A DNA stretch of 52,994 bases, from NCBI GenBank assembly GCA_014859375.1, contig JACUUH010000011.1, forward strand, positions 1-52,994. Reading direction: 5' to 3'. The first letter of the stretch is position 1. The number at the start of each line of letters is the position of its first letter. The DNA is from Gammaproteobacteria bacterium. Lineage in GTDB: Bacteria > Pseudomonadota > Gammaproteobacteria > Nitrosococcales > Methylophagaceae. Shown here piece by piece: positions 13,258 to 15,159 of the stretch. The notes below the pieces were generated by a model. That model had not been told where the DNA came from. It saw only the letters and a program-made list of their open reading frames with translations, and made no database searches. The position numbers and the translations under genes were made by a program.

Positions 13258-13644
13258 GTGATTAAATCTATTGCCCACGCTAGTTTCCTTGTTGACGATG
13301 TTCAACGATCATTAGCTTTTTATTGTGGCGTATTACAAATTAAACAAAACATGTCTCGCCCCAACTTTCCATTTGATGGCGCATGGTTAGATCTTGGTGA
13401 CAGTGGCCAACAACTGCATTTAATGCAATTGCCTAACCCTGATTCTAAAGAAGGCAGACCGGATCATGGTGGTAAAGACAAACATGTGGCATTGGTTGTT
13501 GATAATTTAGATGAATTAGCCAAACGTTTAGATGCGGCCAATATAACCTATTCGAGAAGTAAATCTGGACGAGCTGCCTTTTTTTGTCGCGATCCTGATG
13601 GCAATGCTTTGGAATTTTCTGAAAATTTCAGCCCAAAAATCTAG
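13258..13644 (+). CDS. VOC (glyoxalase/bleomycin-resistance fold) protein
   Basis: A 128-residue protein with paired beta-alpha-beta-beta-beta modules: ASFLVDDVQRSLAFYCGVL opens the first, and VALVVDNLDELAKRL opens the second. The end RDPDGNALEFSE is the common VOC C-terminus. Likely metal ligands are H7, the His in LHLMQLPNPD and the Glu in LEFSE. Members include glyoxalases, FosA-type enzymes and dioxygenases, so no reaction is assigned. The start is GTG at 13258, supported by a strong GGAGG ending about nine bases earlier. It is the last gene before the 640-base repeat region. Confidence 0.85.
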   Translation: MIKSIAHASFLVDDVQRSLAFYCGVLQIKQNMSRPNFPFDGAWLDLGDSGQQLHLMQLPNPDSKEGRPDHGGKDKHVALVVDNLDELAKRLDAANITYSRSKSGRAAFFCRDPDGNALEFSENFSPKI

Positions 13645-13670
13645 CTATTTCAGTCCTTAAAATAACAATT

Positions 13671-13806
13671 CAATGAGTTACAGAGTTACTCACAATTTCT
13701 GTGGATAACTCTGTGGTTAAAATTGGGGAAAGTCCCTAAGTCATTATTCTTTAACAGACACTCTCAAATTGGTTAAAAAATAACCACTACATAAAAATGT
13801 AATTAA
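13671..13806. repeat. Direct repeat copy 1 with DnaA boxes
   Basis: This is the first of two copies offset by exactly 360 bases. Line-by-line comparison over 13681-13800 against 14041-14160 gives 18 differences in 120 bases. The copy has a perfect DnaA box, TGTGGATAA, at 13700-13708 (complement TTATCCACA). It also has a one-mismatch box TGTGGTTAA at 13712-13720 and a weaker TTACTCACA at 13686-13694. Confidence 0.85.
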
Positions 13807-14030
13807 ATCAATAACATAGTGTCAGTTGATGAAAGATCAATGACTTAGAGATGCTTATTGCGAACAAAGTTTAACAGTCAAAATTAATAGTGCATAACTT
13901 TGCATTGTCAATAAATTAGATCAGAAAAATGTCATTAGAACAATGCATGACTTAGCTCTGATATTAGAGCAATTATTTAGTCGGTAAAAATAGGAATACA
14001 CAGCCATATTTTTATCAGAAAGTAAAAATT

Positions 14031-14166
14031 CAATGACTTACACACTTACTCACATTTTCTGTGGATAAGTCTGTGGTTAAAATAGGGGAAAGTTCCTAAG
14101 TCATTATTCTGTAATGAACATCGTCAAATTGATTAAAAAATAACCAGACCATTAAAATGTAAATAA
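14031..14166. repeat. Direct repeat copy 2 with DnaA boxes
   Basis: This is the second copy, offset 360 bases from the first. The same boxes are kept: TGTGGATAA (14060-14068), TGTGGTTAA (14072-14080) and TTACTCACA (14046-14054). The bases around them have diverged, which suggests the boxes are under selection. Downstream of each copy is a further shared patch, AGTCAAAAT followed by GTGCATAACTTT (near 13876-13902 and 14224-14261), containing TTATGCAC on the complement. Confidence 0.85.
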
Positions 14167-14286
14167 AACAACATGTTAGTCTTTGGCAGGCAGGTTGTAA
14201 TGCTCGTTTATGGGCTAATCAATAGTCAAAATGATTTGGATCAATTTGGTGCATAACTTTTGATTATTAACAAAATCAAGTGACAA

Positions 14287-15159
14287 TTAACCTTCTCTAG
14301 CTAGTGGTAATTGCTGATTGTCATAGTCTTCGTCTTCTAGGCCTGTTGGCGCTTGACGTTGTAATTCTAAGTCTTTGAAATTGAATAGGGCAGTGTCAGC
14401 AAGTTGTGATGGCGAAATATTTTGTAGACTTCGAAAGATATTTTCCAGACGGCCGGGATGTTGTTTTTCCCACCCTTGAAGCATTTCTTTGATAACTTGG
14501 CGTTGCAGGTTTTGTTGAGAACCACATAAGTTACACGGAATGATCGGAAATTGTTGATGTTCAGCGTAGCGAATAATATCTGCTTCTTTGCTGTAACAAA
14601 GCGGGCGGATTAAGATATTGGTTTTATCATCACTCAATAGTTTGGGTGGCATAGCTTTAATTTTGCTGCCATAAAACATATTTAAAAATGCGGTTTCGAT
14701 AATGTCATCACGGTGATGACCTAAAGCAATTTTAGTAATGCCATTTTGCCTTGCATAACCATAGAGTGAACCGCGACGTAAACGCGAGCAAATGCCACAG
14801 GTGGTTTTACCTTCTGGCACTACTTCTTTGACGATACTGTAGGTATCTTTTTCAATAATATGAAAAGGTACGCCAATTGAGCTTAAGTAGTTAGGTAATA
14901 CATCTTCAGGAAAACCGGGTTGTTTTTGGTCAAGATTGACAGCAATTAAATCAAACTGAATAGGCGCGTGCTTTTGCAAGTTCAGCAAAATATCAAGCAT
15001 GGTATAACTGTCTTTTCCACCAGATAGACAGACCATGACGTTGTCGCCATCCTGAATCATATTATAGTCAGCAATAGCCTGACCTACCTGACGACGAAGA
15101 CGTTTACGCAGTTTATTAAACTCGGTTATTTGTTTTGCAGGTGTAGCTGTATCGGACAT
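14287..15159 (-). CDS. ttcA: tRNA 2-thiocytidine biosynthesis protein
   Basis: A 290-residue PP-loop ATPase. It shows the P-loop SGGKDS (46-51) and two CxxC pairs, C121/C124 (CGICSR) and C209/C212 (CNLCGSQ), which supply ligands for the catalytic 4Fe-4S cluster. TtcA adenylates C32 of certain tRNAs and inserts sulfur to make s2C32. Its ATG directly abuts the moeA stop (TAA at 15160-15162), so it is the last gene of the mobAB-moeA-ttcA run. No terminator is visible after it. The duplicated DnaA-box region begins at once downstream. Confidence 0.96.

Follow-up and report, generated by a model that had tools for sequence, protein, structure and literature searches.

The window, as we call the whole stretch of 52,994 nucleotides that was analysed, contains a 642-base gap (13645-14286) between a VOC (glyoxalase-superfamily) gene and a PP-loop gene. 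The latter we take to be ttcA; Pfam itself gives ATP_bind_3. The GC content of the gap was 30.1% versus 41.1% for the whole window. As reported in the initial annotation, two direct-repeat units offset by 360 bases were found here: the 162-nt unit at 13659-13820 recurred with 135 of 162 positions identical, and the flanks differed to the extent described, with 18 mismatches per 120 bases compared. The DnaA boxes it had named were all present in both units, namely TGTGGATAA, TGTGGTTAA 12 bases on, and TTACTCACA to the left (Table 1). A downstream patch, GTGCATAACTTT, had also been listed as part of each unit; it indeed repeats in both, at a spacing of 359 rather than 360. This patch proved to be a fourth DnaA-like box, and Fis sites, IHF-like sites, and a second genomic site had been overlooked.

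Table 1. Features of the gap and its flanking genes in window coordinates; plus-signed distances are counted from box III
Feature	Position	Strand	Remarks
VOC (glyoxalase-superfamily) gene	13258..13644 (including stop codon)	+	convergent with ttcA; marks site A
Repeat copy 1	13659..13820		profile match 13683-13819, 79.8 bits; unit is a profile training row
Unit 1 DnaA box I, TTACTCACA	13686..13694	+	sequence match
Unit 1 DnaA box II, TTATCCACA on - strand	13700..13708	-	sequence match; seen as TGTGGATAA
Unit 1 DnaA box III, TTAACCACA on - strand	13712..13720	-	sequence match; seen as TGTGGTTAA
Unit 1 Fis consensus, GGTTAAAAAATAACC	13771..13785		exact, +50 after box III
Unit 1 IHF-like site, AATCAATAACATA	13806..13818	+	+85, one mismatch
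Unit 1 second IHF-like site, GATCAATGACTTA	13835..13847	+	+114, one mismatch
Unit 1 fourth DnaA-like box, TTATGCACT on - strand	13889..13897	-	+168, the patch noted earlier
Repeat copy 2	14019..14180		profile match 14044-14179, 74.4 bits; unit is a profile training row
Unit 2 DnaA box I, TTACTCACA	14046..14054	+	sequence match
Unit 2 DnaA box II, TTATCCACA on - strand	14060..14068	-	sequence match; seen as TGTGGATAA
Unit 2 DnaA box III, TTAACCACA on - strand	14072..14080	-	sequence match; seen as TGTGGTTAA
Unit 2 Fis consensus, GATTAAAAAATAACC	14131..14145		+50
Unit 2 IHF-like site, AAACAACATGTTA	14166..14178	+	+85, one mismatch
Unit 2 fourth DnaA-like box, TTATGCACC on - strand	14248..14256	-	+167
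PP-loop gene taken as ttcA	14287..15159	-	Pfam: ATP_bind_3

The core of each unit consists of box I in forward orientation, 5 nt, box II in reverse orientation, 3 nt, and box III in reverse orientation. Single DnaA boxes were not enriched in the window, where TTWTNCACA had 9 matches against 9.7 expected. The ordered three-box pattern, however, occurred twice in the window and in none of 100 first-order Markov windows, so it is the ordered layout, and not the number of single boxes, that exceeds chance. The reversed pattern, used as a control, gave no match in 59 relatives (boxes II-III) or in 369 genomes of the class (three boxes).

The sites downstream of the core were located with the Fis, IHF, and DnaA-box consensus strings given in the figure legend of PMC8682772, the last base of the IHF consensus being relaxed to R. 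Unit 2 has two more exact Fis words, at 14206 and 14213, and no IHF site at +114 even when one mismatch was allowed. The fourth box has the form TTATGCACN in both units. Furthermore, a Fis gene in the source genome scored above its cut-off, and the genome also encodes DnaA as well as a homologue of 238 aa that we take as Hda.

Conservation in Methylophagaceae and spread beyond the family

The initial annotation had proposed looking for the repeats at the same place in relatives. The site is kept between the VOC gene and ttcA (site A) across Methylophagaceae, and a second orthologous place lies between cobO and clpA (site B); matches in the family are mostly at A or B, and two orthologous sites per genome are common. 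The source genome has two units at site A and one at site B. Boxes II-III with at most one mismatch were found in 39 of 59 relatives. The same search over 29 genus genomes gave no match in G008 and G026-G028. We also built a sequence-only profile of 51 rows, with no E. coli sequence and with the window's units included; rows from other families had to contain an IHF-like site. This profile matched in all 26 genus genomes searched, G026-G028 being left out, and G008 was among those with matches.

For column statistics, units were collected from hand-picked loci, 32 for site A (31 of which gave units) and 31 for site B. Cores were allowed up to two mismatches, except that a mismatched core was discarded if its box II was imperfect, and identical stretches were collapsed into one. 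Some of the named loci belong to the same species as the G genomes. In the resulting 39 site-A and 33 site-B units, the boxes held 1.7-2.0 bits per position, partly by row selection. The linkers, which were not used for choosing rows, held 1.24-1.62 bits per position versus 0.32-0.34 far upstream. The exact Fis consensus was present at +49 to +51 in 26/39 units of site A and 32/33 of site B, compared with about 0.9 per set in shuffles. IHF sites with at most one mismatch were detected near +85 in 35/39 and 32/33 units, and near +114 in 33/39 and 32/33 units, respectively. Many relatives carry exact IHF words, whereas the IHF-like sites of the window each have one mismatch. A TTATNCACN box was present at +120 to +230 in 25/39 site-A and 30/33 site-B units, nearly always at +160-179, in a count without shuffle control. 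All these counts come from rows related to each other, both at site A and at site B, and are thus not independent.

Some minor features were seen in the same units. An outer inverted repeat, at window positions 13672-13746 and 14032-14105, has one arm, AATGACTTA, ahead of box I and the other, TAAGTCATT, past box III, the first arm having one change in unit 1; of the two sites, only A keeps it. Similarly, the columns at window positions 13685 (the base preceding box I) and 13709 (the first of the 3-nt linker) covary as G-C or C-G in site-A units but not in those of site B. Two small genomes (G018:C3:445992, L084; G022:C56, L086) have a degenerate box I at site A, suggesting decay of one DARS-like site there.

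Outside the family, the strict three-box pattern was found in 36 of 369 genomes of the class, 4 of them Methylophagaceae. A narrower pattern matched at least 117 stretches of named genomes, including Methylobacter, Methylomonas, Competibacter, Gallionella, and a Magnetococcales bacterium. Methylophagaceae were separated from the others by a list of our own making, in which three loci titled Methylophaga but with other gene neighbours (L211, L230, and L243) were counted with the family. Because matching the profile already favours sites with Fis and IHF letters, the evidence on Fis and IHF was taken from 71 sites of other families that had been chosen by their core alone. Among these 71 sites, which include sister species and are not all independent, Fis occurred at +48 to +53 in 23 (shuffles, 0.24), and exact IHF words at +80 to +90 in 19 (shuffles, 0.09); when one mismatch was allowed, the IHF count at +80 to +90 rose to 48 (shuffles, 1.75). 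By our ORF rule, 67 of the 71 are intergenic. At E ≤0.001, the profile matched 337 of 369 genomes of the class, leaving 32 without a match, and 222 of 299 genomes in a sample of the phylum that included other classes, leaving 77; its E-values are rough, and these counts can take in weak or antisense partial matches. Some of the weak matches may be oriC- or datA-like.

Comparison with DARS1, DARS2, and datA of E. coli

DARS-type sites were among the possibilities named in the initial annotation, and this suggestion is well supported by the core spacing, which is that of DARS1 and DARS2, by profile matches to both, and by Fis, IHF, and fourth-box sites at fixed distances. According to excerpts of PMC8682772, a DARS core consists of three uniquely arranged DnaA boxes, of which I and II are opposed. 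The units likewise have three DnaA boxes, with I and II opposing and III beside II, and their 9-5-9-3-9 layout is the same as in the cores of DARS1 (L035; TTATCCACT-5-TGTGGATAA-3-TGTGTATTA) and DARS2 (L034; TTATTCACC-5-TGTGGATAG-3-TGTGAAGAA). The E. coli DARS1, DARS2, and datA loci were placed by their gene neighbours. When 69.5 kb of E. coli DNA was searched with the profile, DARS1 came first at 31.3 bits (positions 9-153) and DARS2 second at 22.4 bits (positions 11-156); partial matches to oriC (18.0 bits) and datA (17.6 bits) were not far under DARS2. A HMMER build of the same rows gave 16.2 bits for DARS1 and 5.0 bits (E 0.18) for the DARS2 core, which fell below a place at nrdD (9.2 bits) and the second box cluster of DARS2 (7.4 bits). 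On stretches of the same-genus genome G018, the reversed control of this build stayed at or below 7.7 bits, and the best real match, at 25.3 bits, was the degenerate site A. From the HMMER scores, kinship with DARS1 is therefore better supported than kinship with DARS2.

DARS1, between bioD and uvrB, has the same three-box core with 5 and 3 nt between boxes and matched the profile over nearly its full length. Unlike the window site, it is a single unit with other gene neighbours, and it lacks both an IHF consensus and, near +50, a Fis consensus; the alignment, as we read it, shows only an IHF-like word with two mismatches near +86. One locus, L341, from another genome of the class, joins the two arrangements: Fis at +51 and IHF at +87 follow its core as in the window, and some 260 nt downstream begins a gene of the same direction with 81% identity to E. 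coli UvrB, a placement like that of DARS1. Since L341 was chosen by the profile, the Fis and IHF letters in it do not count as independent evidence. We take a word within L341 to resemble the Pasteurellaceae uptake signal.

DARS2, between rppH and mutH, also shares the core spacing, although its match in the HMMER profile was weak. According to excerpts of PMC4245941 and PMC8682772, Fis and IHF sites lie downstream of the DARS2 core, with further DnaA boxes beyond. In the window units, IHF and Fis consensus words likewise both lie downstream of the core (Fis exact, IHF-like with one mismatch). Their order, however, is core-Fis-IHF, whereas in E. coli DARS2 the core is followed by an IHF pair and then by Fis (PMC4245941), with the Fis consensus at +110. 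Besides, the neighbours here are VOC-ttcA and cobO-clpA instead of the mutH side, and the second unit is complete, whereas the second box cluster of E. coli DARS2, 316 nt on, is degenerate. With regard to datA, which excerpts of PMC4245941 describe as a non-coding DnaA-box cluster with an IHF site, the non-coding boxes and IHF are shared and the profile match was partial only.

An earlier blastn search of E. coli genomes with the core put plasmid places on top, and the chromosomal place inspected was upstream of nrdD and not at a DARS locus. In E. coli O157:H7 (L036, 2001-2032), a DnaA-box arrangement just upstream of nrdD resembles part of the core.

Alternative readings and the location of oriC

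The initial annotation had also considered the gap as a replication origin and suggested comparing it with the GC-skew minimum. Its AT-richness and its combination of DnaA boxes with Fis and IHF-like sites would suit an oriC. Immediately to the left of the site, between about 5 and 12 kb, the cumulative skew calculated over the window also dips locally and slightly, from 0.40 to 0.20. This dip, however, lies mostly over - strand genes, the skew is positive on either side, and the overall course across the window is a rise. A whole-chromosome view in G018 (38 stretches totalling 754,726 bases, half of the sequence) placed the turn from negative to positive skew between 529 and 560 kb of C1, the first positive 5-kb bin starting at 533.6 kb, whereas site A had no lasting skew turn. 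Thus, the site does not coincide with the skew minimum, and the box cluster near the skew turn of G018 is elsewhere: three perfect boxes at 528.6-528.7 kb, between priA and folA. Furthermore, orthologous sites are commonly two per genome, none of 110 core-bearing loci had dnaA, dnaN, mnmG, mnmE, yidC, or rnpA beside it (flanks were ≤1.5 kb in 30), and the best profile score in the source genome's oriC-candidate stretch was 7.1 bits. The candidates of other genomes, however, scored 14.7 bits (G018) and 22-27 bits (G005, G009, and G011), the latter still a weak match. It is hardly conceivable that the gap is oriC. That the sites simply bind and store DnaA, or hydrolyse its ATP as datA does, without reactivation, we consider unlikely, though less so than an origin. 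datA is likewise a DnaA-box cluster with an IHF site (PMC4245941) and matched the profile at 17.6 bits; yet this match covers only model positions 25-109 and ranks under DARS1 and DARS2, and the facing boxes I and II with 5 nt between them, box III another 3 nt on, and the Fis site are DARS-like. Moreover, the same layout is found in several families, although a fixed arrangement would not be required for titration. We know of no facing-box core and no Fis requirement in datA.

The inverted repeat formed by boxes I and II with their flanks, whose 15-nt arms are 87% complementary with 5 nt between them, could instead encode an RNA hairpin or a two-way terminator, the more so as the flanking genes are convergent and the base before box I pairs with the first base of the 3-nt linker in 29 of 39 site-A units (shuffle mean, 18.8). 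This pairing failed at site B (16/33; shuffle mean, 19.7) and was weak elsewhere (36/71; mean, 30.2). None of five predicted consensus pairs changed on both sides among 51 sequences, no T run follows the arms, no Rfam match was obtained, and for many sites across the class the neighbouring genes are not convergent, which together make a hairpin or terminator very improbable. A mobile or REP-type repeat that carries DnaA-box-like letters by chance might explain why 8 of the 26 genus genomes have two near full-length profile matches within 1 kb of each other, with a spacing that varies between genomes. Only three full units, however, exist in the whole source genome, and the gene neighbours are fixed across species, so that we give almost no credence to a mobile repeat.

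The priA-side box cluster of G018 is, judged from sequence, a candidate oriC, and its orthologue in the source genome is C44:10312-10388. Within 28 kb around dnaA, one perfect TTATCCACA and no cluster were found; mnmG was located, with no TTATNCACA within 5 kb of it. The candidate adjoins priA, and not dnaA or mnmG, in both genomes (G000:C44:10312-10388, L159; G018:C1:528599-528735, L134). Of 42 relatives, 24 had the pair-box pattern derived from this cluster, and all 24 belong to the genus; a second pair-box occurs about 2.5 kb from the candidate in five relatives (G001, G005, G006, G008, and G020). In other families, a DARS-like element often lies <4 kb from priA (L066, L209, L213, L221, L228, and L232), and priA was within 4 kb in 14 of 49 profile-selected loci as well.

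Putative DnaA reactivation and doubling of the units

We consider it probable (roughly 0.7) that the gap holds two tandem DARS-like elements that reactivate DnaA. The sequence evidence for kinship with DARS is good, and from it we infer DnaA, Fis, and IHF binding, reactivation, and any gain from having two units. By analogy with E. coli, ADP-DnaA would assemble on the facing boxes I and II and on box III, where interaction of the facing AAA+ domains would release ADP; apo-DnaA would then depart and load ATP, so that active DnaA increases ahead of the following initiation. In growing cells, DNA bending by Fis at +50 and by IHF at +85 and +114 would activate the complex, and the fourth box at +167/168 may load extra DnaA or give feedback.

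To our knowledge, DnaA recharging has been worked out almost only in E. coli. DARS2-like sequences are reported (PMC8682772 and PMC4245941) for seven species proximal to E. coli, Vibrio and Shewanella among them. In a literature search that covered few subscription journals, no title or abstract opening named DARS in Methylophagaceae or the core-Fis-IHF layout. With a fixed DnaA-Fis-IHF layout in many sampled Gammaproteobacteria and some other Proteobacteria, the generality of DnaA recharging would become directly testable; a profile is now available for locating the sites, and DARS1 and DARS2 are joined under one design. The core-Fis-IHF arrangement (about +50 and about +85) could be the ancestral DARS, an idea for which we see even odds: about two loci would have existed in the ancestor of Gammaproteobacteria (GTDB) and in other classes of the phylum, the Fis and IHF sites of E. 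coli DARS1 would since have decayed, and those of DARS2 would have been rearranged. If so, Proteobacteria in general, and not just enterobacteria, would control their cell cycle through Fis- and IHF-coupled reactivation of DnaA, its dosage being tuned by tandem doubling in some lineages.

The doubled site offers a natural dosage test. Doubled pairs other than those at site A were found once at site B (G009) and once at a third place (G023). In a tree of site-A units, first copies clustered with first copies and second with second in two clades; the doublings in these clades are therefore older than the species splits, and both copies keep their cores there. The two units of the source genome, in contrast, paired together with a support of 0.92, as would be expected if the doubling is more recent or if gene conversion has taken place. 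By raw identity, however, unit 1 is slightly closer to the L026 unit (0.77), which lies too near a contig end to reveal a second copy, than to unit 2 (0.74). Extra core copies were also seen at third places, in L071 (G032:C16), where three lie in a row, and in L081 (G023:C64).
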